50,365 nt of DNA from Candidatus Omnitrophota bacterium. GTDB taxonomy: Bacteria > Omnitrophota > Gorgyraeia > Zapsychrales > Aceulaceae. Shown piece by piece: positions 6,518 to 22,180 of this stretch. Every line of letters starts with the position of its first letter. Within the stretch, counting starts at the first letter, position 1. The notes under the pieces were generated by a model. That model had not been told where the DNA came from and did not search any database. It saw only the letters and a program-made list of their open reading frames with translations. A program made the translations under genes and the position numbers. The stretch lies in NCBI GenBank assembly GCA_028693815.1, contig JAQUUP010000013.1:1-50365 (forward strand), read 5' to 3'.

Positions 6518-6547
6518 TTCTATTTATTAGTGTCATAAACATATTGA

Positions 6548-6576
6548 TTGACAGTAGTTTACAAGAGTGGTAATAT
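6548..6576 (+). promoter_or_regulatory. promoter of the ORF6N-integrase operon
   Basis: TTGACA (6548-6553), a 17-bp spacer and TAATAT (6571-6576). The transcript would begin near 6583, immediately before the paired TGGTGCCCA sites, so a protein bound there could block its own operon. Confidence 0.65.
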
Positions 6577-6589
6577 TTTCACATAGGCT

Positions 6590-6609
6590 TGGTGCCCAGA
6601 TGGTGCCCA
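6590..6609 (+). promoter_or_regulatory. paired 9-bp sites near attL (candidate integrase arm sites or operator)
   Basis: TGGTGCCCA occurs at 6590-6598 and 6601-6609 with 11-bp periodicity. The same two-unit layout appears at 22012-22031 near attR and, inverted, at 19078-19097 before xis. This distribution fits arm-type integrase/Xis binding sites. Confidence 0.6.
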
Positions 6610-6653
6610 TGAAAATGTGAGGAAATAGTGAGACAAATTTATTAGTTAATTTT

Positions 6654-6689
6654 AAGGCAATTCTCTTAGCGGAGGGTTGCCTTTTTTGT
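6654..6689 (+). terminator. terminator-like hairpin in the leader of the ORF6N gene
   Basis: AAGGCAA (6654-6660) pairs with TTGCCTT (6677-6683) and is followed by a T-run. It sits between the predicted promoter and the ORF6N gene, so it could attenuate the operon or stop transcripts entering from ssrA. Confidence 0.55.
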
Positions 6690-6736
6690 TTGAAGTCACA
6701 ATGTGATCTCAGAATAACCAATCTGGAGGTTAGAAA

Positions 6737-7270
6737 ATGGTAAAAAAGAAAATAAAAGTTATTTCAACTTCTCAAGAAATTATTCAAAGCATGATTTATA
6801 TTGTCAGAGGGCAGAAAATAATGCTTGATGAAGATTTGGCTCAATTGTATGGAGTAACGACTAGTCGTTTGAATGAACAAGTCAAAAGGAATGTTAAGAG
6901 ATTTCCAGATGATTTTATGTTTCAATTATCAAAGGATGAATTTCAGGTCTTGAAATCGCAATTTGCGACATCAAGTTGGGGTGGTCGAAGGAAACTACCT
7001 TTTGCCTTTACCGAACAAGGTGTTGCTATGCTCTCGAGTGTTTTAAATAGCGATCGGGCGATACGGGTTAATATTACAATTATGAGGACATTTACGCAGT
7101 TGAGACAATTAACTTTTATTCATAAAGAATTAGCTAGTCAATTGAAAAAGATTGAGAATAGGATAGGGAAGCATGATGGAGATATTAGGGCAATAATTGA
7201 TTTGATTAGAAAATTGCATTCAGAGCCTGAAAAACAGAAAAAAGAAATAGGCTTTCATGTAGAAAGTTGA
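6737..7270 (+). CDS. ORF6N-domain DNA-binding protein
   Basis: 177 residues. Residues 12-120 match the ORF6N domain common in phages and mobile elements: IVRGQKIMLDEDLAQLYGV, then LNEQVKRNVKRFPDDFMFQL and the FTEQGVAMLSSVL segment. A helical, charged tail follows (residues 125-177). Such proteins are thought to bind DNA as regulators or antirepressors. A good Shine-Dalgarno (GGAGG) precedes the ATG. The stop overlaps the longest reading of the integrase frame, so the two genes form an operon. Confidence 0.85.
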   Translation: MVKKKIKVISTSQEIIQSMIYIVRGQKIMLDEDLAQLYGVTTSRLNEQVKRNVKRFPDDFMFQLSKDEFQVLKSQFATSSWGGRRKLPFAFTEQGVAMLSSVLNSDRAIRVNITIMRTFTQLRQLTFIHKELASQLKKIENRIGKHDGDIRAIIDLIRKLHSEPEKQKKEIGFHVES

Positions 7271-7281
7271 AACAAAGAACA

Positions 7282-8313
7282 ATGGCAACACTTCGCAAAA
7301 AAGGAAACGCATATTTTATAGACTATCGTGTTGATGGTCGCAGGAGGCGTAAGGCTGTCGGCAAGTCTAAAAAGATGGCAGAGCTTGCATTGAAAGATTT
7401 TGAAGTTAAGCTAGCTCGTAAAGAATTAGGTTTTGATCAAAAAGATTCAACCCTTCACAAGTTACTATTTGATTTTCAAGCATATTGCAAAACTAATGTT
7501 GCTCTTTCTACGCAGAAAAGGTATAGAGCGATACTTAATAATTTTAAAAGATTTTTAAAGACTGATTATTCACATTTAGAAAAGATTTCTCATTTCACCC
7601 CGAAGATTTTTGAAGATTACAAAGGGTTTAGAAAAGGAGATGGTGCAGAGAACCGCACTATTAATGCAGAAATGGTTGTTTTAAGGATGATGCTTCGCTT
7701 AGCCATACAATGGGGTTATTCAAAAGAAAATCCAACAGACGGCGTATCTAAGCTAAAAATAACTAAGAAAGTTTCTCCTGAGTTCTTAACAGATGATCAG
7801 TGTAGGGTTTTGCTCGACAAGGCAGATGATTGGTTTAGGGCAATACTTTTTACATTCTTAAATACAGGAATGCGTAAGAGTGAGCTTGAGAATCTTTGCT
7901 GGGACAATGTTGATTTTAAAAGAAGAAAGATCCGTATTATTGAAAAAGATGGATGGTCTCCGAAAACGAATGAGAGAGAAATTCCTATTAATGATGTTTT
8001 GTGTGATGTGCTTCAAAAACAGAGGAATAAAATTAAGAATAGTAAATATGTTTTTCCTGATGAAAAAGGGAAGAAAATATTTCAGAATCGCCTTCGTAAG
8101 AAATTAATGAGTCTTACTAAAAAATGTGGATTTCCAGAGATTACTAAGATCCATGCTCTTAGGCACACTTTTGCTTCACACTTAGTTATGAAGGGTGTAG
8201 ATTTAGCTACAGTGAAGAAATTAATGGGTCATTCCGATATTGATACAACTATGATTTATAGTCATCTTACGGAGAAACATGTAGATGATGCGGTTGAGAA
8301 GTTAAATTTCTGA
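7282..8313 (+). CDS. int: tyrosine recombinase / integrase
   Basis: 343 residues from ATG 7282. The N-terminus has an arm-type DNA-binding region (TLRKKGNAYFIDYRVDGRRR), then a SAM-like core-binding domain (about 60-155). The catalytic domain shows Arg in NTGMRKSELENL, the HALRHTFASHL box, LMGHSDIDTTMIYSHL and the nucleophile Tyr in MIYSHL. It probably catalyses integration at ssrA. A TTG at 7267 in the same frame overlaps the upstream stop; ATG 7282 fits the domain start better. The last 34 codons are echoed in a diverged copy at 9241-9342. Confidence 0.93.
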   Translation: MATLRKKGNAYFIDYRVDGRRRRKAVGKSKKMAELALKDFEVKLARKELGFDQKDSTLHKLLFDFQAYCKTNVALSTQKRYRAILNNFKRFLKTDYSHLEKISHFTPKIFEDYKGFRKGDGAENRTINAEMVVLRMMLRLAIQWGYSKENPTDGVSKLKITKKVSPEFLTDDQCRVLLDKADDWFRAILFTFLNTGMRKSELENLCWDNVDFKRRKIRIIEKDGWSPKTNEREIPINDVLCDVLQKQRNKIKNSKYVFPDEKGKKIFQNRLRKKLMSLTKKCGFPEITKIHALRHTFASHLVMKGVDLATVKKLMGHSDIDTTMIYSHLTEKHVDDAVEKLNF

Positions 8314-8382
8314 ACCTTGCTTGTTTTTTGGGTGAGGAGTAGAATGAAATAAATTATTTTAGAGAATAAGTGGAGGAACAAT

Positions 8383-8712
8383 ATGGATAAGATGCTTTGT
8401 TTAGCTTTTTTAATTATTGTTTATGTTGGCATAAAAAGATTTTTCTTAGAAATAAGGTGTGATATTAAGCAAATTAAAGAAAAGCTCGGAATTAGTGAAT
8501 TGAATAGATATGAAATGGCATATAAAGAAAATGATACTGTTTCCAGGGGACGATGGATTAAAAGTATGCTGGCAGAGAGATATAGCGAGATTGAGATCGC
8601 AAGCGCCTATTTTGATATATGGGGGCGAATAAGTTGGTATTTTTCAGGTAGGAAGATATTGAAATCGCTATCGAAATCTCAAAATAAGAAAAAAGAAAAT
8701 TCTGATGAATAA
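8383..8712 (+). CDS. small membrane-anchored protein of unknown function
   Basis: 109 residues, not recognised. One N-terminal hydrophobic segment (about residues 4-20) is followed by a charged cytoplasmic-type region. A strong GGAGG lies 6 bases before the ATG. The 3' end overlaps the next gene by 8 bases, so the pair is probably co-translated. Both genes lie between the full integrase and a remnant integrase tail, which suggests they arrived together as a cassette. Confidence 0.7.
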   Translation: MDKMLCLAFLIIVYVGIKRFFLEIRCDIKQIKEKLGISELNRYEMAYKENDTVSRGRWIKSMLAERYSEIEIASAYFDIWGRISWYFSGRKILKSLSKSQNKKKENSDE

Positions 8713-9244
8713 ATTATTAATCATATTAGCTTTATTGCTTCTTCCAGTACTGTCTTTCGCTCAAGAATGGACGATTAAAGATTGGAATGTTCAGCCGTTT
8801 AGCGGAGGAAGGGTTTTATTTTATGCCCATGGAACGGTTGTTCACGGGCATCAATTTGGATTCTTAAAGAATACTAAGGATTGTGACACAGATATTCTTT
8901 TGATATCTCTCGGATCTTTTGATAAAAAAGTAAAAGATTTTGATGGAGAACCAGTTACTTTTAGCATTGAAGTTGATGGTGTAGAATTTCAGATTAGTGT
9001 TAATGTATTTTCTAAAAATACGGGATCGATTACCATAATGACATTCACTAATTTTGTAGCGAAAGAGGATTTTACTAATTTTCTTATTAAGGGAAATGAG
9101 CTAAATTTAAAAATTGTTGAACCGAAAGAATTTATAAAATATTTTGATATGAACAATGAAACTTTTAGTTTAATTGGTTTTACAGCTGCAAGAAAGAAAG
9201 CGAAAGATTATTGTGAAGAAACAAAAAATAGAGGAGCTTTATGA
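8705..9244 (+). CDS. exported protein of unknown function
   Basis: 179 residues with a clear signal peptide (MNKLLIILALLLLPVLSFAQ; cleavage expected after SFA). The mature part has no recognised domain; it is rich in beta-prone segments and has three Cys residues (two near the middle and C-terminus could pair in the periplasm). It is translationally coupled to the upstream membrane protein (8-base overlap). Its stop overlaps the ATG of the integrase remnant (ATGA). Confidence 0.72.
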   Translation: MNKLLIILALLLLPVLSFAQEWTIKDWNVQPFSGGRVLFYAHGTVVHGHQFGFLKNTKDCDTDILLISLGSFDKKVKDFDGEPVTFSIEVDGVEFQISVNVFSKNTGSITIMTFTNFVAKEDFTNFLIKGNELNLKIVEPKEFIKYFDMNNETFSLIGFTAARKKAKDYCEETKNRGAL

Positions 9245-9342
9245 AGAAATTAATGGGTCACTCTGATATTGATACAACCATGATATATAGCCACCTTACA
9301 AAGAAGCATGTAGATGAGGCGTTAGGGAAATTAGACTTCTAA
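9241..9342 (+). pseudogene. remnant of a second integrase (C-terminal 33 codons)
   Basis: This 102-base stretch matches the last 102 bases of the integrase at 8212-8313 without gaps. I count 18 differences, most of them synonymous. It keeps LMGHSDIDTTMIYSHL with the catalytic Tyr and ends in TAA. The rest of that integrase is absent. The divergence argues for a tail from a related, older element rather than a recent duplication. It still has an ATG overlapping the previous stop, so a 33-residue peptide could be made. Confidence 0.85.
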
Positions 9343-9354
9343 AAGGAGGAATTG

Positions 9355-10575
9355 ATGATCTATGAAATAGAAAAGTTTGTAGTTTGTAACGAGTATACAA
9401 AAAAAGAAATTGAATATTTATTTAATATTTTGCCCTTAGAGGAGAAGAAAAAACTAATTTCAGACTTAGTGAATAATTCTTTGACATCTCGAGTATATGA
9501 ACATCTTGAGAATTTTATTGTTTCTGGAGAGAATAAAATAGATAAGATTATTTTAGTTGAGAATAGCAATTCCATTGACGATAAGAGCTTGATAAGGCTT
9601 TATAATGATGGTGATGAGTTGATGAGAGCTAAAATGATTGAGAGCCAAGGATTATTTTTGGAAGGCAAAGATTTTAAGAGTTTAAGCTTTATGGAGAAAC
9701 TTGCTTATTGTAGGTCATTTAAATATAGTAGTGATTTTGTTGAGAAATTAATAGACCCAGATTGCGATGAGTTAAAGGATGAAGATGGAAGAAGAGAACT
9801 AATTCTTTCTTTTTTTACTAATAAAGAATATATAGAAGACTCAAAAAAGGGTTTTCTTGACGATTCGTATACAGATGGGTTAGATGCTTGTTTTACAGTA
9901 TCAGGAAATAAAAAGATTTGTGAGCTGGTTTTTAAGTGGCTTGAATCTGATCCTGATATTGTCAGTAATTATTTAGATTCTTTTTATGGCGATCAGGATC
10001 TAAAATTGTATATGTACGAGAAGTTAATTGATAGAAAGTATGATTTATTTAGAGCTAAATTGTTTTGGAATTTAGCTGAAGAAAAAACGTTATTTCAGAA
10101 CTACAATGAATTGTTTGAAAAAGGAATAAATGACCCGTATGAAATAATAAGCATTAGATGTGTTGAGCTAAAGGCATTAACTGAAAAAGAATTAGGTAAG
10201 ATTTTAAAAGTTAACGATGGGTACACTAATGGATATTTATTGAGAAATAAGAATTTACATCACACCCTAATGAAAATTATTTTAAATGAGATTGATTCTG
10301 GTGATTTTAATATGCCAGAATTCTTACCGTTTGGGGCAAGGAGAGAGCAGGAAGATGAGTTCAGAGAGCTTTATTATCAGAAAACTTCCGATAGCAAGCA
10401 GAATGTTTTTTATTTCTTGCGTAATTATAGGCAGCTGGAAGACAAAACAGAATCTCAGAAAATTCTTGAATACCTGAAGGTTTTTTATCAAGAGAACAGA
10501 AAGCTTGTAGAATCGATTAAAAAACTTTTATGGGCTGTTATTGTAATACTTATATTATACGAACTTGTCTTATAA
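9355..10575 (+). CDS. large helical tail-anchored protein of unknown function
   Basis: 406 residues, not recognised. No signal peptide is visible. The sequence is acidic and strongly helical, with short repeating helical pairs that could form a HEAT- or TPR-like superhelix. It ends in one C-terminal hydrophobic segment (about the last 18 residues, IVILILYELVL), so a cytoplasmic domain tethered by its tail is likely. ATG 9355 is preceded by AGGAGG at a 5-base spacing, which favours it over the TTG at 9352. It sits directly after the integrase remnant. Confidence 0.72.
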   Translation: MIYEIEKFVVCNEYTKKEIEYLFNILPLEEKKKLISDLVNNSLTSRVYEHLENFIVSGENKIDKIILVENSNSIDDKSLIRLYNDGDELMRAKMIESQGLFLEGKDFKSLSFMEKLAYCRSFKYSSDFVEKLIDPDCDELKDEDGRRELILSFFTNKEYIEDSKKGFLDDSYTDGLDACFTVSGNKKICELVFKWLESDPDIVSNYLDSFYGDQDLKLYMYEKLIDRKYDLFRAKLFWNLAEEKTLFQNYNELFEKGINDPYEIISIRCVELKALTEKELGKILKVNDGYTNGYLLRNKNLHHTLMKIILNEIDSGDFNMPEFLPFGARREQEDEFRELYYQKTSDSKQNVFYFLRNYRQLEDKTESQKILEYLKVFYQENRKLVESIKKLLWAVIVILILYELVL

Positions 10576-10593: not shown

Positions 10594-11118
10594 ATGAAGA
10601 AATACTTTTTTATCGCAATACTTTTATTCTTTACTTCTTATGTGCATGCTTTTCAAGCTGTAGATATTAATCCTGAATTTCAGCCTACACAAGAAGAGCT
10701 TTTGGGTCTTGCGATTGAAAAAGACTTTGTTCCAGCTGATCATGGTGAAGAGTATTTTAGAGAAAAAATAAAAGAGAAAGATACGTTGCTTGCGTGGGTT
10801 GGTCTTTCTCAGGAAGATAAAATTAAGATTTTGGGAGCCTTGATCGAGATTCATAGACAAGAAGGAACTATCGTTGAGAGACATCCTGTTTATTACGCTA
10901 AAGAGATAGATAAGACTCTTTATATCGGGTTAAGAAAGGGAACTTTTAGAGAGATGGGCGGAATTGGAATTGTTTTTAAGACTATAGCTGTGATGGATGG
11001 AGATTTTGATAACGGAGAAGATCCTAAGGTTCTCCTTGAGAGCTGGATGCCAGTAGAGGTAATAGAGGTTTTTAAACAAACTTATCCAAAAAAATATAAA
11101 AGGATTTTTGGAGAATAA
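10594..11118 (+). CDS. exported protein of unknown function
   Basis: 174 residues with a signal peptide (KKYFFIAILLFFTSYVHA). The mature protein is rich in Glu and Lys, contains no Cys and matches no family I recognise. AAGGTGA precedes the ATG. It is the first of a run of six closely spaced, same-strand genes for exported products (10594-14705). Confidence 0.7.
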   Translation: MKKYFFIAILLFFTSYVHAFQAVDINPEFQPTQEELLGLAIEKDFVPADHGEEYFREKIKEKDTLLAWVGLSQEDKIKILGALIEIHRQEGTIVERHPVYYAKEIDKTLYIGLRKGTFREMGGIGIVFKTIAVMDGDFDNGEDPKVLLESWMPVEVIEVFKQTYPKKYKRIFGE

Positions 11119-11145
11119 AGTTTTGGTAAAGGGAGATTGAGTGTA

Positions 11146-11709
11146 ATGAAGAAAATAATAATAGGGCTAATATTTTGTTTTTTAGTTTTTTGTTCAGAAT
11201 CCGTTGCTGATATGTATCATAATTATATTGAGTATCGATACCAGCCTAAATTAGGAAAAATAACAATTTCAGATAGTTTTGTGCGTAGCGTGGAATATGT
11301 TGATTATGTATCTGATAACTGGGAAAAATTAGCTAAGGAAGATATTTTTGTTCATGGGGAACTTCATGCAGGAGAGGCGAGAACTTTTAAAAGAAGTGCT
11401 GTAATTGGGAAACATAAGATTGATACAGTTTTGACGCTTTATCCTCCCGCAGGCAATGGCATGGGCGGAGCATACCCAACAACTTACTTGCAAGTGATGA
11501 TTGATGAAAAGAAGAAGATAGATTGTAATATAGGGTTTTTCCCTGGAGGAAAGGAGAAAGTTTCTCAGATAACGATTCACCCCGAGGATGATGCAATCTT
11601 TGTTGATGCATTTGATTTTGTAAAAGGTGAAAAAATATGTGATCATTATATTAATATGAGCGATTCTGAGATTGTTACGAATGAATATGTAAAGACAAGT
11701 AAATATTAA
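11146..11709 (+). CDS. exported protein of unknown function
   Basis: 187 residues from ATG 11146, which follows GGGAGA at 9 bases; the longer TTG start at 11137 abuts that ribosome site and is less likely. The signal peptide is MKKIIIGLIFCFLVFCSESVAD with cleavage near SVA. The mature chain has beta-rich character and two Cys (CNIGF and KICDHY) that could form a disulfide. No family recognised. Confidence 0.7.
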   Translation: MKKIIIGLIFCFLVFCSESVADMYHNYIEYRYQPKLGKITISDSFVRSVEYVDYVSDNWEKLAKEDIFVHGELHAGEARTFKRSAVIGKHKIDTVLTLYPPAGNGMGGAYPTTYLQVMIDEKKKIDCNIGFFPGGKEKVSQITIHPEDDAIFVDAFDFVKGEKICDHYINMSDSEIVTNEYVKTSKY

Positions 11710-11750: not shown

Positions 11751-12239
11751 ATGAAGAAATTATTAATTGTTTTTTGTTGTTTATTGTTTACGAGCTTCAT
11801 AGGTAGCAGAGCTGAAGGAAGGTGTTTATGGTCTTATGACGAAAGCATTCTTTCAGGTCATATTTGCGTAGACGAATCTATAGAGCCTTTTGATTTTGTT
11901 TTTCGAGTTACAAATAATACAAAAACTGCGATTAATTTTAAAATACTCTCCTACAGGGTTGAGATGGAAGACGGATCTATTTATGTCTTAGAAAATCCTC
12001 GAGTTGTAGGCAATGATGGTATTGCAGGCAGCTATATACTTAATCCAAAACAAGTGATAGCGGTATATGCAACATCACCTTTTTCTAGAAAAGAAGAGCT
12101 TGAAAAAGTTAAAGAGGTTTATATAAGGCATGGAGATAAAAGGATATTTTTTGTTTTAGAATCAGAAATTGATGAATATAAAAAGCCAGAAAATATAGCT
12201 ATTAGACATTTAAGAAATCTTTGGTGGAATATTAAGTGA
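11751..12239 (+). CDS. exported protein of unknown function
   Basis: 162 residues with a signal peptide (MKKLLIVFCCLLFTSFIGS). The mature part resembles a small beta-sandwich (FVFRVTNNTKTAINFKIL, a pattern seen in proteinase-inhibitor-like or CARDB-like folds), but I assign no family. The bases from the ribosome site through the first eight codons are almost identical to those of the next gene at 12258, pointing to shared ancestry or exchange of the start region. Confidence 0.7.
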   Translation: MKKLLIVFCCLLFTSFIGSRAEGRCLWSYDESILSGHICVDESIEPFDFVFRVTNNTKTAINFKILSYRVEMEDGSIYVLENPRVVGNDGIAGSYILNPKQVIAVYATSPFSRKEELEKVKEVYIRHGDKRIFFVLESEIDEYKKPENIAIRHLRNLWWNIK

Positions 12240-12257: not shown

Positions 12258-13244
12258 ATGAAGAAATTATTAATTGTTTTGGTATGTTTCAATTTATTTG
12301 TTTTTAATATTTTTGCAGAAGAATCCGAAGAATCAAATGCTATGTTAGAAAAAAGCGAGTATTACGATTCTCATATTAAAGAGAACGAAGAAATATCAAG
12401 CTTAAGCTCTCTGACAGACGAAGAACTAAGGGCTATGTTAGAAAAGTTGGAAGCTGAAGAATTGAGTGTTTCTCGACTAGACTCTTTAACGGAAAATGTA
12501 ATAGAGGATTATATAATAGAAAAACCTTTAAAGACATATCAATTTTTACACGATTATATTGATTGCCTGCACAGGCTAGAGGTTGCAAATATGTATGCGG
12601 AAATGGAAACATCAAATATTTTAGATCAGATGAAGAATATAAATACTTATATTTCATATTTAAATGAGGCAAAAGAAGTTCTTTATCCCTGGGCAGGGGA
12701 ATTTGTAAATATGAGAAAAGTGGCTATGGATTTTGATAGAATCTTTGCAGATTCAAACAGGATTAACATGATAGCAGGTCCTTTGTATGCGGGTATTAAT
12801 TATATTCAAACTTTGCAGGAGAAGAATCTTAAAATTTTGGATGGCTCAGCAGATGGAACAACCTCGGACATTGTCAAGAATAGTTCTGATATGGAAGTTG
12901 CGTGGGTGCAATTCTATAGGGACTCAGCGAATCTTATTATGGTTATAACTCAACTTCGAAAAGATGACTCTGAAATCCCTATAGGAAAAATACCGCATCT
13001 TATTTCTGATGAAGAACGTTATAAGCTTATAGGTTATCTTAATAAACTTTTTAAAGATAAATTTAAAGAATATAATGAACTAGCTCAGAAATATAAATAT
13101 GGGGCAATTTCTGAGGAAGAATTTAATCCTACAATCGTTACTTATTGTGCTCTTCATTTAAAGAAACTATTATCTGGTGAAACCTATGAGGAATCAAAGG
13201 CAAGAGATGAATCAGAAGACCCCTATTATTTTGAATTAGAATGA
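12258..13244 (+). CDS. exported acidic helical protein of unknown function
   Basis: 328 residues with a signal peptide (MKKLLIVLVCFNLFVFNIFA). The mature N-terminus is very acidic (EESEESN), followed by two similar AMLEKL/SEYY-type acidic helices and a long helical body; coiled-coil potential is likely in residues 30-110. No family recognised. It follows the preceding gene by 18 bases and shares its start-region sequence. Confidence 0.7.
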   Translation: MKKLLIVLVCFNLFVFNIFAEESEESNAMLEKSEYYDSHIKENEEISSLSSLTDEELRAMLEKLEAEELSVSRLDSLTENVIEDYIIEKPLKTYQFLHDYIDCLHRLEVANMYAEMETSNILDQMKNINTYISYLNEAKEVLYPWAGEFVNMRKVAMDFDRIFADSNRINMIAGPLYAGINYIQTLQEKNLKILDGSADGTTSDIVKNSSDMEVAWVQFYRDSANLIMVITQLRKDDSEIPIGKIPHLISDEERYKLIGYLNKLFKDKFKEYNELAQKYKYGAISEEEFNPTIVTYCALHLKKLLSGETYEESKARDESEDPYYFELE

Positions 13245-13269: not shown

Positions 13270-14076
13270 ATGAAAAAAATACTAATCATTCTAATGTGCC
13301 TAGGATTGGCTGGATGCGTTTCTTATGGGACATCCTATAAAAAATTGGTTTTAGATATGCATAAGCAAGAATATTTATCTAATTCAGATTTCTTCCTTTT
13401 GAATCTTATGAATGAACCGTGCTCTGTTAAGAAAAATATAAATATGATTATTGAGGAGATGGATGGTTTTTTGTCTAGTCTGGAATTTGAGACTAGGTCT
13501 GCTGAAGAAAAGAATATAGTAGTTCAAAGCTATAAATTAATGCTAGAAATGCAAAAAGAAAATCCAGAATTAGTAATTAATACTTATGAAATTCTTAAAA
13601 AAGGATTGGACAGTGAAATAATAACCTGGAAACAATATCGAGATGAGGTTGACAGCTGCAAAGATCTTGAAAAAGATTTTAATAAGGTGCGCACTTATTA
13701 TTCTCTTGCTAATTTTATTGAGAATGAACATAGAAGGAAAAAAGGTTATTTCAAGGATATTGTGTCAAAAGTTGTTGCTTATGCACATAAAAGATGCTCC
13801 CAGTTTGAAACTGACAGAAGAAATGCTATGGATTCTTGGGTTGCCATTCTTTCGGCAGGGGCAGAGAATTCAACAAGAGCAGCAAATCAGTCTTCTTATT
13901 CTGCGCCACAATACGGGGAAGCTCGTATTTATGGCGATAGGATAGAATACCCTGATGGCTCAGAATCTTTTATTTATGGTAATAGAATAGAGAATCCTGA
14001 TGGCTCAGAATCTTTTATTCAAGGCGATAGGATAGAACATCCTGATGGTTCCGAGTCTTTTATTTATGGTAATTGA
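13270..14076 (+). CDS. lipoprotein with C-terminal tandem PDGSESF repeats
   Basis: 268 residues. The lipobox LAGC in MKKILIILMCLGLAGC marks an acylated lipoprotein. The middle is helical and charged. The last 50 residues hold three 15-residue repeats of the form IYGxRIExPDGSESF plus a partial fourth (IYGN), probably a small repetitive beta structure. The rest is not recognised. RBS GGATGGGGCT is shared in style with the gene at 14121. Confidence 0.75.
   Translation: MKKILIILMCLGLAGCVSYGTSYKKLVLDMHKQEYLSNSDFFLLNLMNEPCSVKKNINMIIEEMDGFLSSLEFETRSAEEKNIVVQSYKLMLEMQKENPELVINTYEILKKGLDSEIITWKQYRDEVDSCKDLEKDFNKVRTYYSLANFIENEHRRKKGYFKDIVSKVVAYAHKRCSQFETDRRNAMDSWVAILSAGAENSTRAANQSSYSAPQYGEARIYGDRIEYPDGSESFIYGNRIENPDGSESFIQGDRIEHPDGSESFIYGN
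13927..14061 (+). repeat. three 45-bp in-frame tandem repeats
   Basis: Units at 13927-13971, 13972-14016 and 14017-14061, each coding 15 residues, followed by a truncated unit before the stop. The units are nearly identical at both the DNA and protein level, so copy number may vary between strains. Confidence 0.9.
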
Positions 14077-14120
14077 ATAAAGAATAAATGAAACGCTGTT
14101 TAACAGTTAAGGATGTGGCT

Positions 14121-14705
14121 ATGAAAAAAATAGTATTCGTTTTTGTCTTTTGCTTCTTGGCTGGCTGTGCAACATTTTCTTCGCAGATGTATCCTAATGC
14201 AAAGAAATATCCAGCAACTAATCCTGAAGATATTGCTATATTTGAATTTCCTCCGCAAGAACCATTTGTAGCTATTGGTGAAGTTGGGTCTCAAGCAGCA
14301 CCAGCAGCTCAAAGAGAAAGTCTTTACAAAAGATTGAAGGAGGAAGCTTCTAAAATGGGTGGGGATGCGATTATTGTAAACCATAGCAAAGATGTCGCAG
14401 GTTTCTACAATTCTGGCGGCTCCTCTTATACAAGCGGAACTGTTTATGGCTATGGCAACACGGCAACATATAGCGGAACGACAACTACTTACCCCACTTA
14501 TTCAACTCCGATAGTCAAAAAGATAATCAGAGGTCTTGTTATTAAATATGTGGATGAATCAGAAGTCCCAAAGCAAAAGCTTGAAGTTGAAATAGAAGAA
14601 GATGGGTATGATAAGTTAAAGAAATTAAAAGAACTCAAAGACGACGGTGCTATAACTGAAGAAGAATTTAACAAAGAAAAGAAAGAGATATTAGAGAAGT
14701 ATTAA
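14121..14705 (+). CDS. lipoprotein with C-terminal SHOCT-like domain
   Basis: 194 residues from ATG 14121; the frame extends to ATG 14088, but the ribosome site AAGGATGTGGCT and the signal peptide favour 14121. The signal ends LAGC, a lipobox. A middle segment (RLKEEASKMGGDAIIVNHSKD) resembles YbjQ/heavy-metal-binding-like lipoproteins, followed by a Gly/Ser/Tyr/Thr-rich linker. The C-terminal 30 residues (KLKKLKELKDDGAITEEEF) match a SHOCT domain, a short helix pair found at the ends of many prokaryotic proteins. Its function in the island is unknown. Confidence 0.78.
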   Translation: MKKIVFVFVFCFLAGCATFSSQMYPNAKKYPATNPEDIAIFEFPPQEPFVAIGEVGSQAAPAAQRESLYKRLKEEASKMGGDAIIVNHSKDVAGFYNSGGSSYTSGTVYGYGNTATYSGTTTTYPTYSTPIVKKIIRGLVIKYVDESEVPKQKLEVEIEEDGYDKLKKLKELKDDGAITEEEFNKEKKEILEKY

Positions 14706-14736: not shown

Positions 14737-15711
14737 CTAAAGAGTAGAGCTCGATGAAGTATAGATGTCTTTTAGACTTTTACCGTTCTTTGTTTGTCTT
14801 TGCATCCATCTTTGAGCAGTTTTATAGCTAATACTTTTTCTTTCTGCATATCTTTCCGCCAATGCTTTTTTAACATCCTTCTCACTTTTTCTATGCCTTG
14901 CTAAAGCCATTTGCTTAGCAGTAAACACATAGCGACCTTCTTTTTTAGATAATCTTATGGTGCCTCTACGATTGCTGTAATACAGGTATTTCTTGATGGG
15001 TTCATTTATAAAATCTTCATCAGAGAAATACTTTTTCTTTTTTTCTTTTCTTAGAATATTTTGCAGGTAAATGCCAACGTGATATTTCAAGCCAAGGGAA
15101 TGTTTAGATTGGCACCAATATCCAATGACTTTGGGCAAATTATTTAATAATATTTCAGAGTACTTTATTTTTGTGTATGTTTTATTAAAGTATTTATTAG
15201 CAAACTGGATGAATAGTTGGTTGAATTCGCATGCTGATACTATTTCTCTTTGAGCGAGATATATTCCCAATTCTAGCGTAATAGAATCTGCTAATTCTTC
15301 CACCCAGTTGGAATCATTAATATTAGTATTATCTAAAAAGATAGAAGGAATGAAGCCTCTTGGTAGGCGAGAGAATTTGTCTCCTAATTGAATACCCTTT
15401 AAATCTTTTTTCGTAGCGTAATTACGCATCCGAATGTAATCAACCCAGTCTTTCCAGCTATGAAATATTTCATGCTGTATCTGAAAGTCCAATCTTTTTC
15501 CATTATCAGAAAACGCAGGCTTTAACTTAACAGACTCCTTTCCTGATAGGTCTATAAGGGCAAAGCCTTCAATATCACCATTTTTAGAGGTAAAGATGTG
15601 TCCTCTTAGAGTGGCATTTGGCTTTGATAGCTGAATCATATTTCTCGCAATTTGATTCAACCTCCTGCGTAAACTCCCTCTTCCAAATTTTTTTTCACTA
15701 ATTATCTTCAT
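14737..15711 (-). CDS. HExxH-motif protein with C-terminal helix-turn-helix, possible island regulator
   Basis: 324 residues, no confident family. His80-Glu-Ile-Phe-His84 is an HExxH metallopeptidase motif, and WVEELADSITLEL (residues 136-148) resembles the ExxAD segment of ImmA/IrrE-type peptidases, although the spacing is longer than usual. The C-terminal part (ALAERYAERKSISYKTAQRWMQ) reads like an HTH. It is the only leftward gene of the island and has a full-consensus promoter, as repressor genes of mobile elements often do. The role as a regulator is inference. Confidence 0.7.
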   Translation of the reverse strand: MKIISEKKFGRGSLRRRLNQIARNMIQLSKPNATLRGHIFTSKNGDIEGFALIDLSGKESVKLKPAFSDNGKRLDFQIQHEIFHSWKDWVDYIRMRNYATKKDLKGIQLGDKFSRLPRGFIPSIFLDNTNINDSNWVEELADSITLELGIYLAQREIVSACEFNQLFIQFANKYFNKTYTKIKYSEILLNNLPKVIGYWCQSKHSLGLKYHVGIYLQNILRKEKKKKYFSDEDFINEPIKKYLYYSNRRGTIRLSKKEGRYVFTAKQMALARHRKSEKDVKKALAERYAERKSISYKTAQRWMQRQTKNGKSLKDIYTSSSSTL

Positions 15712-15738: not shown

Positions 15739-15767
15739 ATTATATCCGTAGACGTTAGAAGTGTCAA
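15739..15767 (-). promoter_or_regulatory. full-consensus promoter of the leftward HExxH-HTH gene
   Basis: On the minus strand, TTGACA (15767-15762), a 17-bp spacer and TATAAT (15744-15739). Start is expected near 15732, with AAGAGGA just before ATG 15711. It lies in the 83-bp divergent gap before the primase operon. Confidence 0.8.
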
Positions 15768-15794: not shown

Positions 15795-16046
15795 ATGAAT
15801 AAAACAAATTATTGTACTGCGAATATTTATGAAGCTGCATATTTATTAACAGTAGGCTTTCAGCTTGCAGGAAAACAAAGAAATGGAGCAAAAATTGTTC
15901 TTGAGTTTAAGGCAAGCCAGAAGTTAATAGATGAGAGTTTAAAGTTTTACAACGGAGGGAGGGTTGACGCAAGAGCATTTAGCGAAGCGTTCAAGAATAT
16001 TAAGAATTTTATTTTTGAAGCAAATAAGGGAAATGTTGCCGTTTAA
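15795..16046 (+). CDS. DUF5659-like protein
   Basis: 83 residues. The pattern YLLTVGFQLAGKQRNGAKIVLEF, then KFYNGGRVDARAFSEAFKNIKNFI matches the small DUF5659 proteins found in mobile elements next to replication genes. The function is unknown. It opens the rightward block that leads into prim-pol. Several purine-rich stretches before the ATG can serve as ribosome sites. Confidence 0.7.
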   Translation: MNKTNYCTANIYEAAYLLTVGFQLAGKQRNGAKIVLEFKASQKLIDESLKFYNGGRVDARAFSEAFKNIKNFIFEANKGNVAV

Positions 16047-16105
16047 AATTATTTTCAATGAGGGCAGAAGATTTAAATTAAATAAATAGGAGGATGAGGA
16101 GAGAA

Positions 16106-18325
16106 ATGGAAAACAAATTATTAGAATACGCATTAAAGTATAGCAAAATTGGATGGTATGTTTTTCCGTGCAGACGAAATAATAAGCATCCAATGACTAA
16201 GAATGGTTTTAAAGACGCCACGATAGATGAGCAGGTTATACGACGATGGTGGACTCGCAATCCAGATGCCATGATTGGAGTTGCTTGTGGTAAGTCGGGA
16301 TTTGTTGTGATTGACATTGATGATAAAGATGGACGTTTTGGCTCAAGAACGTGGGAGGCTATAAAGCATGAGGATATTATAACGGTAGAGTCTATTACTC
16401 CGACAGCTGGAAGACATTTGCTTTTTGAGCTTGATGAAAAAAGAAAAATACATCAAGATTCAGACATTTATGGTCATGTTGGGATAGACATAAGAAATCA
16501 AGGTGGTTATATTATTGTTGAGCCATCGCTTATGACTCCTGAATATGCACACTCGCAAATACTAGGGAAAGATAAGCAGCAAATATATGAATGGGTGGAA
16601 GATCAATCTCCCTTTGATATGAAGCCAATAAGAATGCCAGATTGGGTATATGAATTATTTAAAGAAAAGAAGGAATCCGAGAAAGAGAAATTCAGTCTTC
16701 CTGATAATGTTCCAAAGGGTCAACAAGATGATACTTTTTTTAGATTTGCTTGTAGCTTGAAAGCTCAAGGATATGATCCTGATATGGTAAGAGGTGCGTT
16801 AAAAATATCAATAGAGGAAAGATGTGAGCAAGACAAGGATGATCCATTCACTTGTAAAGATATTGAGCGATGGATTAAGCAGGCTTTTAAGTATGACGAT
16901 GAGAAAAAGGATAAGAAAAAAATTAAGAAAAATAAATTTTTGGAGACGAGTTTTATTGTTTTAGAGGATGGACAGATTGCTGAGATGGTGTGTGATAGGG
17001 CTGATCAAAAAGTGCAGTTTGCTGTTTACGATAAGGAAACGGGAGAGTCGCGCTTGACCGATTCGGTGCTTTATAATGGCAAAACAGTTATTCCATACCA
17101 GAATGATTTCTTAATTAATCCCGTGAACCCTACTGAGACGCCAGTAGTATTGTTGCCAAGCAAAACAGAAGAATATAATTTAGATAAAGAATTGTTTGAC
17201 GAGATAAAGTGTTTTATTCATAAGCATGTTGGATTAAATGAGTGTTTTGAGAAATTAGCCACCATATATGTGATGTTTTCATGGTTATATGATTGTTTTA
17301 CTGTGTTGCCATACATAAGGGTTCTTGGAGATTTCGGAACTGGAAAGTCTAGGTTTTTATCAACAATAGGCTCTATTTGTTACAAGCCAATGACTATTGT
17401 TGCTGCTGTGGGAGAAGCCCCAATTTTCCGCATGATACAAAGATACAAAGGGACTCTCGTTCTTGATGAGGCCAATTTTAAGCATAATGATGTTAATGCC
17501 GCAATTATGCAAATATTAAATGCTGGATATGAGAAAAGAACTCCTGTTGTACGATGCGATTCTAAAGATTATGAGAAAATTATTCAATGTCAAGTTTTTG
17601 GACCTAAGATTATCTCTAGTCGTGAGAAGTGGAAGGATTTAGCTCTTGAAAGTCGGTGTTTAACGCATATGTCTAATACCTCTGAAAGAATACAGGCGGT
17701 TGGGGCAGATCCAGAAGAAGATGATATTCCAATTTATCTTGGACATGAGTTTGATAGACAAGCTTTACAGTTAAGAAATAAGTTATTGCTATATAGGTTT
17801 AGGAATTATGGAGAGAAAGAAATAGATGTGAAAAAGTTAAAATATCCTGTAGAGCCTAGAATATCTCAAATACTTTTGCCACTTGCTAATTTAACTAGTG
17901 ATGAGCAGGTATTGGAAGAAATTAATAATATAGCTAAACAAATGAATAAGGAGCGCATAGAGGATAGATCTTCTAGGTATGAAGCCAAGATACTTCAAGT
18001 AATAAAGAATATTGAGGAGGAAAGAATTGCTAAGGGTGAAAAGATCTACATCAAAGAGATAGCTGATTCCTATAATAAAGAGGCTTATAACGAGAAAGAG
18101 AAAATGAGTCCGCAAAGGATTAGTTATTATATTCGAAAGCCTGAGCTAGCTATAGAATTGCAACCTAAAGATCGTGACGGAAGAAGTATTATTTGCAATT
18201 CCGAGCAGATGAATAAGTTGTATATAAAGTATGGCATTATTACTGCAGATTGTATTGATAATGAGAGCGTGGGCTATATTGATTGTGACGATGTGACGGC
18301 TGTGACGAACTCATGGGAAGAGTAG
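16106..18325 (+). CDS. bifunctional primase-polymerase / helicase replication protein
   Basis: 739 residues from ATG 16106. Residues 10-190 form a prim-pol domain (GWYVFPCRRNNKHPMTKNGFKDA; metal-binding VIDIDDKDG). A primase C-terminal-like helical region follows (about 205-270). The ATPase segment has Walker A (GDFGTGKSR) and a Walker B-like LVLDEANF. Such proteins prime and unwind DNA for replication of plasmids, satellites and phages. ATG 16094 abuts its AGGAGG, so 16106 (after GGAGAG) is preferred. The C-terminal codons overlap the left half of the repeat cluster at 18284-18396. Confidence 0.88.
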   Translation: MENKLLEYALKYSKIGWYVFPCRRNNKHPMTKNGFKDATIDEQVIRRWWTRNPDAMIGVACGKSGFVVIDIDDKDGRFGSRTWEAIKHEDIITVESITPTAGRHLLFELDEKRKIHQDSDIYGHVGIDIRNQGGYIIVEPSLMTPEYAHSQILGKDKQQIYEWVEDQSPFDMKPIRMPDWVYELFKEKKESEKEKFSLPDNVPKGQQDDTFFRFACSLKAQGYDPDMVRGALKISIEERCEQDKDDPFTCKDIERWIKQAFKYDDEKKDKKKIKKNKFLETSFIVLEDGQIAEMVCDRADQKVQFAVYDKETGESRLTDSVLYNGKTVIPYQNDFLINPVNPTETPVVLLPSKTEEYNLDKELFDEIKCFIHKHVGLNECFEKLATIYVMFSWLYDCFTVLPYIRVLGDFGTGKSRFLSTIGSICYKPMTIVAAVGEAPIFRMIQRYKGTLVLDEANFKHNDVNAAIMQILNAGYEKRTPVVRCDSKDYEKIIQCQVFGPKIISSREKWKDLALESRCLTHMSNTSERIQAVGADPEEDDIPIYLGHEFDRQALQLRNKLLLYRFRNYGEKEIDVKKLKYPVEPRISQILLPLANLTSDEQVLEEINNIAKQMNKERIEDRSSRYEAKILQVIKNIEEERIAKGEKIYIKEIADSYNKEAYNEKEKMSPQRISYYIRKPELAIELQPKDRDGRSIICNSEQMNKLYIKYGIITADCIDNESVGYIDCDDVTAVTNSWEE

Positions 18326-18396: not shown

Positions 18397-18440
18397 GTAA
18401 TGAGCAGAATTGAACGATATTGAACAAAATTATGGGGATT

Positions 18441-18824
18441 ATGATGGAAAATAAAGTCGAGTTAACCGATAAACAATTTTTAGTTATAGGATATTCTTTA
18501 GCAGCATCTTCTATCGAGTCGGCTTGTAAGGAGGCTGGTATTAGTAGAGGAACCTTTTATGAATGGCTAAAGAATAAAGATTTTAAGGATGAACTTAAGC
18601 GTCAAAGAGACGAGATTGTTTTTGCTTCTATAAACAGGCTTCAAGTAGGAATGACAAAGGCAGTCGATGTTTTATTTGATTTGATGGACTCGGATAAGCC
18701 GTCAATTCGTTTATGGGCAGCGAAAGAAATGTTGCATCAAGCCATAAGGGTTAAAGAGGATGAAGATATTATTCAAAGATTAGAGTCTTTAGAGCAAGAG
18801 GCTGGGAAAAAGAATGAGAATTAA
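18441..18824 (+). CDS. phBC6A51-like HTH protein, resembling terminase small subunits
   Basis: About 128 residues; start uncertain between ATG 18432, 18441 and 18444. Residues 5-55 form a helix-turn-helix (SIESACKEAGISRGTFYEWLKN) of the kind annotated as phBC6A51 or as the N-terminal domain of terminase small subunits. A helical region and a coiled-coil tail ending in repeated Glu and Lys follow. No large terminase subunit is present. In satellites a lone small subunit redirects helper packaging; whether that applies here is unknown. Confidence 0.7.
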   Translation: MMENKVELTDKQFLVIGYSLAASSIESACKEAGISRGTFYEWLKNKDFKDELKRQRDEIVFASINRLQVGMTKAVDVLFDLMDSDKPSIRLWAAKEMLHQAIRVKEDEDIIQRLESLEQEAGKKNEN

Positions 18825-19065
18825 TTCAAGAATAAAGCGATTAGAAGATAAGTTTTGTACGAACGAAAAGGAAGATTTTGTTTTTATTACTTTTAGTGTA
18901 GTCAAAGGCAAAAAAGGTGAATGGGAGCATGAAGGAAAAAGATTCTTTGACCTCTTTGTTTTTAGAAGAAGGGGCGGCAAATTAATGGATATGTTACATG
19001 AGGGCTCGGATGAGTTTAATAAAGTATTGCGTGAAAATGGATATAAGAGGGTTAAAAGTGTGTAA
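18814..19065 (+). CDS. small hypothetical protein
   Basis: 83 residues, not recognised. The N-terminus is basic and helical (INSRIKRLEDKF), then a short beta-prone segment (DFVFITFSVVKGKKGEW). It overlaps the upstream HTH gene by 11 bases, so it is probably co-translated. Very similar short N-terminal patterns occur in many phage orphan proteins, so no function is proposed. Confidence 0.6.
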   Translation: MRINSRIKRLEDKFCTNEKEDFVFITFSVVKGKKGEWEHEGKRFFDLFVFRRRGGKLMDMLHEGSDEFNKVLRENGYKRVKSV

Positions 19066-19175: not shown

Positions 19176-19376
19176 ATGGAAAAGTTGCTAAAAGTTGAAC
19201 AAGTCGCGGAGTTGTTGCAGGTGAGTAAGCGAACAATTTATGATTGGACGCATGCGGAGTATATTCCACATTATAAGTTCCGAAATAACGTGAGGTTTAA
19301 AGAATTGGAAATAGATAGTTGGGTAAAAAAGAAGAAAAAAAGAGGTAGAAATGAATATAGAGAGACATTGGAATAA
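19176..19376 (+). CDS. xis: excisionase-family HTH protein
   Basis: 66 residues forming one MerR/AlpA-like winged helix: LLKVEQVAELLQVSKRTIYDWTHAEYIPHYKF, then VRFKELEIDSWVKKKKK. This is the typical pattern of excisionase-type DNA-binding proteins, which steer tyrosine recombinases towards excision. The ribosome site (GGTGGAG) is about 18 bases upstream, so initiation may be weak. The gene follows the inverted copy of the paired 9-bp site. Confidence 0.82.
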   Translation: MEKLLKVEQVAELLQVSKRTIYDWTHAEYIPHYKFRNNVRFKELEIDSWVKKKKKRGRNEYRETLE

Positions 19377-19452
19377 TGGTAGTCGAAGTATATTTTTAAC
19401 TTTTTATTTTTTAATATTAATGTATAATTATTTAAAGGGATTAAATCAAAAC

Positions 19453-19635
19453 ATGACTGAAGAAGAAATTAAAGAACAATTTAAAAAGCTGGATATCTTA
19501 ATAGAAAAAGATGCAGATTATTCTGATCCTTATAGCTTTGCTTTAAAGCTTAGGGAAGATTTACCCAAAGACGAATATAATATCTGCTATTCAAACTCTA
19601 CAATATTGCCACAGTACACTTCATACAATGCCTAA
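19453..19635 (+). CDS. small protein upstream of the ClpP/SppA-class protease
   Basis: 60 residues from ATG 19453 (an upstream ATG at 19351 in the same frame lies within xis and is less likely). It begins MTEEEIKEQFKKLDILIEKDADY and is acidic and helical; no family is recognised. A TATAAT at 19423-19428 could give it a promoter separate from xis. It overlaps the protease gene by 8 bases, so the two are probably a functional pair. Confidence 0.6.
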   Translation: MTEEEIKEQFKKLDILIEKDADYSDPYSFALKLREDLPKDEYNICYSNSTILPQYTSYNA

Positions 19636-20533
19636 CTGGAATCAAGTTCTTGAAGAATTAAATCGTGAAGCAAGCACTAGTCCTCTTGATAGAGTTAGGC
19701 GTAAATATCTATCCTCACTATCTATTTACTTAAAAAGAAATGTAATTGCTTATTATTCTGGATGGATACAAAAACCAGGCGTGGATAGTGCAGGAATAAA
19801 TGATAATGATATGAATGGATTGATGGCTGCAGTTCATCAGTTAGATAAAAAAAAGGGTTTGGATTTAATTTTGCATACGCCAGGAGGAAATCTAGCTACT
19901 ATTGAATCGATCGTTGATTACTTGAGAAAAATATTTGGAAGAGATATTCGTGCGTTTGTTCCTCAGATAGCATATTCTGCTGGTACTATGTGGGCTTTGT
20001 CGTGTCGTGAAATAATTATGGGTAAGCATTCTTTTTTAGGTCCGATAGATCCGCAGTTTAATAGGATTTCAGCTGAGGCAGTTAAAGAAGAGTTTGAGAG
20101 GGCGATGAAGGAAACCAAGGAAGACCCAAGCCGAATACTTATTTGGAAAGAAATAATTAAGAAATATCATCCTACTTTTATTGGTGATTGTGAGAAAGCT
20201 ATCGAGTGGTCTAAAGAGATAGTTCAAAAATGGCTTGAGACAAATATGTTTAGCGACAAACCAACTTGCACAGAGGATGCAAAGAAAGTAGTGGAGCGTT
20301 TTTCTAGCCATAAAGAGACAAAGGCTCACAATCGTCAAATACCATCTGTTGACTGCAAGAGTGTTGGTTTAAATATCGTAGATTTAGAAGCTGATTCAAA
20401 GTTGCAAGATTTATTATTAACCGTTCATCATGCATTTATGCATACTTTTTCTAGTACTTCTGCTATAAAAATTATTGAGAATCATGAAGGCAAGGCTTTG
20501 GTTAGTTTTCACAGCGTTCAGCTGAAGAGGTAG
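19628..20533 (+). CDS. SDH/SppA-like serine protease (ClpP-crotonase fold)
   Basis: 301 residues. The central region matches the serine dehydrogenase proteinase (SDH_sah) type of ClpP-class proteins: LDLILHTPGGNLATIESIVDYLR, then PQIAYSAGTMWALSCREIIMG with the likely nucleophile Ser in YSAGT, and HSFLGPIDPQF. No signal peptide or membrane segment is visible, so it is probably cytoplasmic. A helical C-terminal part follows (about 150-300). Proteases of this fold with unknown substrates occur in mobile elements; a role in host take-over or defence is a guess. Confidence 0.8.
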   Translation: MPNWNQVLEELNREASTSPLDRVRRKYLSSLSIYLKRNVIAYYSGWIQKPGVDSAGINDNDMNGLMAAVHQLDKKKGLDLILHTPGGNLATIESIVDYLRKIFGRDIRAFVPQIAYSAGTMWALSCREIIMGKHSFLGPIDPQFNRISAEAVKEEFERAMKETKEDPSRILIWKEIIKKYHPTFIGDCEKAIEWSKEIVQKWLETNMFSDKPTCTEDAKKVVERFSSHKETKAHNRQIPSVDCKSVGLNIVDLEADSKLQDLLLTVHHAFMHTFSSTSAIKIIENHEGKALVSFHSVQLKR

Positions 20534-20577
20534 TTTTTAATCGGCGCTAAACTGGTGTAATTGGTTTTTGAGCTTGT

Positions 20578-20600: not shown

Positions 20601-20644
20601 ATAAGTTAATTGTTTTAATCATTTTTTAAAAAAGAGGAGAGCAT

Positions 20645-21040
20645 ATGAGAGTTCTGTTATTTTTAGTGTGCATGACTGTATGTTTTTCAGGATGTGCCTC
20701 TGCGCCGTATCATCGTGATCAGCTAAGGGATGATTCTGGAGATCGTTTAACGGTCGGAACGGTTCAGAAAGAAATAAAGGTTGGAATGTCATCGGCACAG
20801 GTAGCAGAAATCTTAGGGTCTCCGAATGTAGTTACAACTGATGAACAAAGGCGTGAGGTTTGGGTTTACGATAAGATTTCTACTGAAGTTTATTATTCTG
20901 AAAGCGGAGCAGGACTAAAGTTTATGACATCGGGAAGCTCTGGAGGGGCAACGAAGACCCAGAGAACATTAACAGTTGTTATTAAATTTGATTCAGAAGG
21001 TAAAGTTAGAGATTTTGCTTATCATACATCGAGGTTTTAA
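20645..21040 (+). CDS. BamE/SmpA-like lipoprotein
   Basis: 131 residues. The signal peptide ends FSGCAS, a lipobox. The domain at residues 35-90 has the SmpA/OmlA pattern: VQKEIKVGMSSAQVAEILGSPNVV and an aromatic EVWVYD segment. BamE-type proteins help the outer-membrane beta-barrel assembly machine; many small lipoproteins share the fold without that role. It is the first gene of a three-lipoprotein operon at the right end of the island. Confidence 0.78.
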   Translation: MRVLLFLVCMTVCFSGCASAPYHRDQLRDDSGDRLTVGTVQKEIKVGMSSAQVAEILGSPNVVTTDEQRREVWVYDKISTEVYYSESGAGLKFMTSGSSGGATKTQRTLTVVIKFDSEGKVRDFAYHTSRF

Positions 21041-21042
21041 AT

Positions 21043-21591
21043 ATGAAAAAATTTTTTTATGGTGCTGTAGTCTTATTATTCTTTTGTGGTTGTGCAGCTA
21101 CTTTACCGAAAGACATGCTTAAGTTGTCAGACGAGAGCTTAAAAAACAGAGAGCAGCAAATGCGTCAGTATGAAACTACGGATGAAGAGAAAATCCTCGT
21201 CTCCTCAGCTACTGTTTTGCAAGATTTGGGATTCATTATTGATGACACCGAGACGGAACTCGGGTTTATTGCTACTTCAAAAAGTGCTGATGCTACTAAC
21301 GCAGGACAAATTGCAGGTGCTTTTTTTATTGATATGCTTGCCGCTTTAGGAGGAAATGCAAGCGCTTCGGCTACTAAGAATTGTGATAAAGAACAAAAGG
21401 TTCGAGCTTCGATTATAGTTAAACCTAGCAATGATAAAAGCAAAATGGTTGTTAGGATTACATTTCAAAGAATTGTTTGGAATCAAGCAGGATTAGTTTC
21501 TCGTTTTGAAACAATAAGGGATGAAGAGATGTATCAAACTTTTTTTGATAAATTGTCTAAATCGATTTTCTTAGAGGAGCAACAAATATGA
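21043..21591 (+). CDS. lipoprotein, paralogue of the next gene
   Basis: 182 residues. The signal peptide ends FFCGCAA with the lipidated Cys. The body shares a pattern with the following gene: YETTDEEKILVSSATVLQDLGFIID, LGFIATSK, then VRITFQ and YQTFFDKLSKSIFL. Relative to it, this copy has an insertion rich in Ala and Gly (residues 82-115) that includes a hydrophobic stretch. Not assigned to a named family. It follows the BamE-like gene by 2 bases. Confidence 0.78.
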   Translation: MKKFFYGAVVLLFFCGCAATLPKDMLKLSDESLKNREQQMRQYETTDEEKILVSSATVLQDLGFIIDDTETELGFIATSKSADATNAGQIAGAFFIDMLAALGGNASASATKNCDKEQKVRASIIVKPSNDKSKMVVRITFQRIVWNQAGLVSRFETIRDEEMYQTFFDKLSKSIFLEEQQI

Positions 21592-22010
21592 AAAAGATTA
21601 GAATCTTCATTATTTTATTCTTAGTGTTAATTATGTCGGGATGTGCCACAACAACTCAACAGGTTATGACGACCCAAGAGAGCCAGGTAATGTTAAGGTC
21701 GATGCAGACTAGAGTTTTCGATACTACCGATAGAAACATGATGTTGAGAACGATTATCGGAACGCTTCAAGATTTAAATTTTGTTATTGATAGCGCAGAT
21801 GAAATGCTTGGAACAATAACTGCTACAAAATATGTTTATAATAGTGTTTTAAAATCTACTGTAACTGTTAGACCTAGAGGAGAAACTCAGCTTCTCGTTC
21901 GTTTAAACGCACAATACGGGTTAAAAACAGTTGAGGATCCAGAAACATATCAGGATTTTTTTACTGCCCTAGAGAAGGCTATATTTTTAACAGCTCATCA
22001 GGTTGATTAA
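21588..22010 (+). CDS. lipoprotein, paralogue of the previous gene
   Basis: 140 residues. The signal peptide ends MSGCAT. It shares with its upstream neighbour DTTDRNMMLRTIIGTLQDLNFVID, LGTITATK, VTVRP and YQDFFTALEKAIFL, but lacks the Ala/Gly insertion. The ATG overlaps the previous stop by 4 bases. The tandem arrangement suggests a duplication followed by divergence, perhaps forming a hetero-oligomer in the outer membrane. Confidence 0.78.
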   Translation: MKKIRIFIILFLVLIMSGCATTTQQVMTTQESQVMLRSMQTRVFDTTDRNMMLRTIIGTLQDLNFVIDSADEMLGTITATKYVYNSVLKSTVTVRPRGETQLLVRLNAQYGLKTVEDPETYQDFFTALEKAIFLTAHQVD

Positions 22011-22011
22011 T

Positions 22012-22031
22012 TGGTGCCTAAATGGTGCCCA
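22012..22031 (+). promoter_or_regulatory. paired 9-bp sites near attR (candidate integrase arm sites)
   Basis: TGGTGCCTA (22012-22020) and TGGTGCCCA (22023-22031), with 11-bp periodicity as at 6590-6609. The pair lies about 130 bases inside the right end of the island. Confidence 0.6.
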
Positions 22032-22158
22032 TCTTACATCAAAACGCTCGCACTTTAGCGTATCTAAATGTAACTGTTCGCACAACTTTTTAAGAGCGTT
22101 CCTCGACGCTATTTGAGTAAAGTTATTGAAAATAAAGGAGTTATGTCGTCGGGGCTAA

Positions 22159-22180
22159 TCGATTCCCCGCACCTCCACCA
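22159..22180 (+). repeat. attR core: second copy of the ssrA 3' end
   Basis: These 22 bases are identical to 6496-6517. Upstream similarity breaks down at once (GGGGCTAA instead of GGGGT), so this is the displaced original end of ssrA, not a second gene. The 130 bases between this and 22031 hold no gene. Confidence 0.9.

Follow-up and report, generated by a model that had tools for sequence, protein, structure and literature searches.

The window, a stretch of 50,365 nucleotides from a Candidatus Omnitrophota genome of 1.9 Mb in 52 contigs, contains a 15,663-bp island of about 22 genes inserted at the end of ssrA. That this island is a mobile element is close to certain, because it is missing from ssrA in both congeners and in a relative of the same family, while sister islands occupy the site elsewhere in the order. 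We consider it rather probable that the island is an integrated, and probably functional, phage-satellite-like element, satellites being small elements that depend on the particles of another phage for their spread. This reading follows from its presence and absence among relatives, from the sister islands, and from a small-terminase (TerS)-like protein whose matches in the phage database are all satellites.

The limits of the element are precise. The tmRNA gene ssrA lies at 6122–6517 on the forward strand (ARAGORN; Rfam RF00023, E = 1.8e-72), directly downstream of smpB (5500–5964, PF01668). Its final 22 nucleotides (6496–6517, the attL core, TCGATTCCCCGCACCTCCACCA) reappear at 22159–22180 (the attR core) as an exact direct repeat on the same strand, and the island is the sequence between these two copies. 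This confirms the 15.7-kb element bounded by exact 22-bp copies of the ssrA end described in an earlier note on this DNA. The pair is the sole exact 22-mer repeated more than 1 kb apart in the contig; chance alone would give about 1e-4 such pairs in a sequence of 50 kb. Integration leaves ssrA intact, as both the att copies and the sister islands show. The scanned neighbours beyond the repeats are ordinary chromosomal genes or lack a match. A cobalamin riboswitch is found at 49443–49582, close to the contig end.

The earlier note had proposed searching related genomes for ssrA junctions with and without the element; relatives that lack it and relatives with sister islands were found. The comparison genomes each represent a different species, so that presence and absence are read between species. 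The element is absent at ssrA in the two congeners (G001 and G002) and in a genome of the same family (G003), and homology searches in these three found neither the TerS-like protein nor the integrase of the island. In G002, ssrA is followed by a chromosomal-looking set of genes. In G003, a distance of 3.6 kb separates ssrA from the lipid A acyltransferase gene, which in the window follows the island. In G001, an apparently different element occupies ssrA. At this locus (L033), an ORF of 571 aa resembling large serine recombinases overlaps the ssrA end on the opposite strand, and an HTH_17-like ORF is found further along.

Seven further genomes of the order encode integrases 56–76% identical to that of the island, and the two with the lowest identity adjoin tRNA-Ser. 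Named relatives of the integrase also place the host in Candidatus Omnitrophota. In named genomes of this phylum, members of the integrase family lie directly after the tmRNA gene; in those of Zixibacteria, Calditrichota, and Auribacter, they mostly follow tRNA-Ser. The 3′ end of the tRNA-Ser beside sister integrases (L091–L102) resembles that of ssrA. One of the sister islands, in genome G004, is complete: it sits at ssrA, spans 10.1 kb, and is bounded by an exact 20-bp att repeat. Its proteins are 68% (integrase), 40% (TerS-like), and 43% (excisionase) identical to those in the window, whereas its primase is of the CHC2 type and its cargo is different. The two islands have a common gene plan: integrase, cargo, replication gene, TerS-like gene, a gene of 83 or 86 codons, excisionase, and att. 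In G183, integrase and TerS-like genes lie 8 kb apart beside tRNA-Phe, the right end of this island being tentative, and in three other genomes (G333, G142, and G073) TerS-like genes are clustered with recombinases of other kinds. Altogether, TerS-like proteins were matched in 11 of 384 genomes of the phylum, several of them weakly. Homologues of the first gene of the island, which encodes an ORF6N protein, occur at the same place in G040, G024, G021, and G079, and the replication genes differ among sister islands. A Zixibacteria island beside tRNA-His (L103) also has an integrase and an excisionase; one of its proteins is 34% identical to residues 266–718, the C-terminal part, of the Prim-Pol protein described below. 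A family of satellite-like islands that recurs in Omnitrophota is the best explanation of these observations, and a fairly probable one, together with the satellite reading as a whole.

The core genes of the island, all on the forward strand unless noted, could be named with profile searches. The anti-repressor-like ORF6N protein (6737–7270; PF10543, E = 1.3e-36; phrog_4792) overlaps by 4 nt a TTG start of the frame of the tyrosine integrase (7282–8313; PF00589, E = 4.7e-35). The integrase probably starts at the ATG at 7282 rather than at this TTG (7267), since its homologues begin at MATLRKK. PADLOC matched the ORF6N protein alone in the island (PDC-S05); we dropped a defence reading because ORF6N is a common phage-type domain. 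In the right-hand part, the only reverse-strand gene of the island (14737–15711) diverges from the replication module. It encodes a protein with an HEIFH (HExxH) motif and no family match, and a promoter scan found a 12/12 sigma-70 consensus upstream of it (15739–15767); it may be a regulator of the island. The module itself contains a DUF5659 protein (15795–16046, PF18903) and a Prim-Pol protein with a C-terminal helicase-like region (16094–18325; PF09250, E = 8e-32; phrog_1156), the presumed replication initiator. It is followed by the TerS-like gene (18420–18824; phrog_2538, E = 9.3e-11), whose product has an N-terminal HTH and long helices, and directly by a gene for an 83-aa protein (18814–19065). 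The latter had no match in the phage collection. Genes of similar size adjoin TerS in G004 (86 aa, a resemblance seen by eye) and in G183. Next come an excisionase/AlpA-like HTH_17 protein (19176–19376; PF12728, E = 3.6e-14; phrog_66) and a ClpP-like serine protease of the SDH type (19628–20533; PF01972; phrog_11747, E = 7.6e-94). The protease shares 47% identity with a protein of a Porphyromonas phage, weakly matches head maturation proteases, and was missing from the earlier description.

In the 20 island proteins that were scanned, searches against Pfam and PHROGs gave no convincing match to capsid, portal, large-terminase, tail, or relaxase families. The island thus has the integrase, excisionase, Prim-Pol/helicase, ORF6N, and lone TerS-like HTH proteins that the earlier note had listed from the sequence, and lacks, as it had stated, capsid, portal, and large-terminase genes; for conjugation, no relaxase family was matched in these 20 proteins. 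The profile searches against phage families that it had suggested named the core genes and left most of the cargo without a family. Nor did Pfam match coupling-protein, partition, or mobilisation families in the island. A site-specific integrase and accessory cargo without transfer machinery of its own would also suit a mobilisable genomic island (IME) that relies on a conjugative helper for its transfer, yet neither a relaxase nor a coupling protein was matched, and we regard this explanation as very unlikely.

The arrangement agrees with what is expected of a satellite: att-bounded integration, a length of 15.66 kb within the range of about 7–20 kb, an integrase, an excisionase and a replication gene of its own, and no structural, portal, or large-terminase gene among the 20 scanned proteins. 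The own capsid genes typical of cfPICI are absent, and the P4-like satellite genes psu, delta, and sid had no match in the island (Pfam and PHROGs in both cases). The TerS-like protein matched 23 of 50,697 phage records, every one of them a Streptococcus satellite phage, with 31–38% identity over 74–89% among the matches listed. Proteins of the window, of other Omnitrophota, and of the Streptococcus satellites alike match TerS PHROGs. In its AlphaFold model (pLDDT 73), an HTH precedes long helices, and the structural matches, none individually significant, include the phage protein phBC6A51 and small terminases. The best Pfam match is a transposase-type HTH. The identification of the protein as a small terminase is therefore a remote one. 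The TerS of SaPIs provides the comparison for a TerS-like gene without TerL.

An earlier suggestion left open whether the gene plan is that of a satellite or of an integrated plasmid. The relatives, the sister islands, and the TerS-like protein favour the former. The plasmid-like alternative, in which the element would replicate autonomously with the Prim-Pol protein, spread by transformation or passive transfer without a phage, and use the TerS-like protein as a DNA-binding regulator, is less favoured and in our view unlikely. In its favour, the Prim-Pol protein, of a family that occurs in plasmids, phages, and islands, has relatives in 73 plasmid records, the TerS-like protein is called an HTH by Pfam, and a search of this genome with three marker families (TerL, PF03354 and PF17289; portal, PF04860) found no helper. 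However, the TerS-like protein has one weak match in plasmids against the 23 in satellites, its gene is kept across islands with differing integrases and primases, and no partition or mobilisation family was found in the island. The missing helper markers are also compatible with a satellite whose helper is lytic or absent from the genome. A scan of IMG/VR returned one remote match for the TerS profile and two for the integrase profile, and a search for Prim-Pol in named GTDB contigs found none.

Alternatively, the island might be what is left of a prophage after the loss of its structural genes, given its ORF6N, integrase, and TerS-like genes and a protease known from phages too. The sister islands disfavour this explanation, which we consider very unlikely: the same reduced plan is found independently in G004 and G183, structural remnants are lacking while the main frames are intact, and the matches of the TerS-like protein are satellites rather than full phages. 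We thus retain the phage-satellite-like reading.

The island is also a mosaic. Downstream of the integrase gene, a cassette of two genes (8314–9343) encodes a 109-aa protein with an N-terminal membrane segment (8383–8712) and an exported 179-aa protein with a signal peptide (8705–9244), both on the forward strand. Its right border is a remnant of the 3′ end of a second integrase gene, of about 33 codons (9242–9343, same strand), with 83% DNA identity to the end of the island integrase; the differences between the two, compared by eye, are mostly silent. Since such a remnant bounds the cassette, the island has probably recombined with a relative.

Most of the remaining cargo has no family in Pfam or PHROGs and no usable NCBIfam name. 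Between the cassette and the reverse-strand gene, the forward strand encodes a 407-aa protein with a C-terminal membrane segment (9352–10575) and exported proteins of 174 aa (10594–11118), 190 aa (11137–11709), and 162 aa (11751–12239), all four without a family match, and an exported protein of 328 aa (12258–13244) with no convincing one. Two lipoproteins follow. The first (13270–14076, 268 aa) is nearly an orphan in the class and ends in three 15-aa repeats, encoded by three 45-nt tandem repeats at 13918–14085; the second (14121–14705, 194 aa) has a C-terminal SHOCT domain (PF09851, E = 2.7e-9). With the three lipoproteins of the right end, the exported set amounts to five proteins with signal peptides and five lipoproteins, plus two membrane-anchored proteins. 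The earlier count of about eleven genes for exported proteins or lipoproteins is therefore close to ours, ten and the two membrane-anchored ones. One of the lipoproteins (21043–21591) was called a signal-peptide protein by our script, and its lipobox was read by eye. Exported proteins and lipoproteins are enriched here: among ORFs of at least 100 aa they account for 10 of 19 in the island, compared with 55 of 318 in 400 kb sampled from the same genome (Fisher p = 8e-4, with a home-made heuristic predictor and a test chosen post hoc). One 20-kb region of the background reached 50% exported.

Does this cargo characterise the family? The sister island in G004 encodes four exported proteins, including one PEP-CTERM, the truncated island of G024 has one exported protein after the integrase (seen by eye), and the TerS cluster of G333 has a pair of lipoproteins. 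Because exported cargo is missing altogether from G183 and from as much of the G040 island as is sequenced, this cargo is exchangeable, an unusual feature of the present member that recurs in part, and not a trait of the whole family. The earlier idea of an element whose life style is to remodel the host envelope thus goes too far. The toxins of SaPIs are secreted too.

Concrete candidates for an effect on the envelope are three consecutive forward-strand lipoprotein genes at the right end. The first (20645–21040) encodes a BamE-like protein, identified from a domain match (PF04355, 30.0 bits for a cut-off of 23.2) and the conserved gene order; its profile matches to solved BamE structures are weak (E = 0.05). 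The model of the second (21043–21591, pLDDT 64) has a predicted fold resembling the N-terminal domain of BamC (E = 5e-4, TM 0.37/0.54), and 12 of the 15 top fold matches are BamC or chains of the BAM complex; a search for BamC homology at the sequence level found none. The third (21588–22010) is a paralogue of the second. Its weak PHROG matches lie mainly over the signal peptide, so we rejected its identification as a spanin or Cor protein. The second protein was matched in 18 of the 246 genomes of the class, and the order of the trio is kept in most of them, among the matches listed. Strong matches are 51–59% identical and their chromosomal surroundings differ. The operon is thus conserved but sporadic in Omnitrophota chromosomes, and in the genome of the window it is found only in the island. 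The TerS cluster of G333 has, in the same slot, a two-gene version: one gene is homologous to that of the BamE-like protein, the other to the family of the paralogue pair. The BamE-like protein and the second lipoprotein had no match in the phage collection, which leaves a phage-borne origin of these two unsupported. The best reading is that these are host-type envelope genes captured as cargo.

Several known systems resemble the island in part. The PICIs, including SaPIs, are also att-flanked elements of 7–20 kb with an integrase, regulators, a replication gene of their own, accessory genes, and a TerS-like gene without TerL or capsid genes. Unlike them, the island is from a different phylum, has an unrelated integrase and Prim-Pol protein, and carries mostly exported proteins and lipoproteins. 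Its gene plan fits the descriptions of phage satellites in PMC13376191, PMC11389934, and PMC10803314. The Streptococcus satellite prophages of the Javan set (PMC6813308) are the sole phage records in which the TerS-like protein has a homologue. In Javan99 and Javan176 this gene lies in the right-hand part, as in the island, but their replication genes are of the DnaC/DnaI type instead of Prim-Pol and they have no annotated envelope cargo. The PICMI of Vibrionaceae (PMC10803314) share an integrase, an AlpA-type HTH protein (PF12728 is among the profiles of the PICMI model), a primase, and a gene overlapping int by 4 nt. They differ in having six genes where the island has about 22, no Fis gene was identified in the island, and the TerS-like homologue was not found in PICMI. 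Phage-encoded superinfection-exclusion lipoproteins (Ltp, PMC3952083; T5, PMC9586334) provide a precedent for mobile elements that set envelope proteins against phage entry, although no sequence relation was found and the island lipoproteins resemble BamE/BamC-type proteins of the host. In a partial literature collection, we found no work joining Omnitrophota, satellite, and prophage.

These comparisons suggest how the element may work. As the att copies and the sister islands show, the site of recombination by the tyrosine integrase is the T-arm/3′ end of ssrA; excision would require the integrase and the AlpA/Xis-type protein. The Prim-Pol/helicase protein would replicate the island. Because the island lacks structural, portal, and large-terminase genes, we propose that the TerS-like protein may redirect the packaging motor of an incoming helper phage to island DNA, as satellites are described to redirect the packaging of their helpers (PMC11389934). 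Cargo is held in two main slots, one from the integrase to the replication module and one from the TerS/excisionase end to attR, and turns over by recombination. The BamE/BamC-like trio might act on the assembly of outer-membrane proteins or on surface receptors, and could thereby benefit the carrier or exclude competing phages. It is a plausible hypothesis that the cargo can alter the host envelope, with this operon as the candidate. That the satellite lineage picks up and spreads BamE/BamC-like lipoproteins, changing the outer-membrane proteins on display, is a more specific and doubtful proposition.

What is known of phage satellites comes mainly from a small number of well-studied bacteria. 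The satellite-like islands of Omnitrophota, almost without relatives among the viral contigs of IMG/VR, suggest that satellites are common across uncultured phyla and escape virus-calling. With its two slots and its swappable envelope cargo, the island offers a testable case of a satellite changing the cell surface, in contrast to the carriage of toxins or defence genes only; a concrete candidate for bringing this about is the BamE/BamC-like operon. If the lineage does spread such lipoproteins, carrying a satellite would alter the phage receptors or host-contact proteins that the cell displays.
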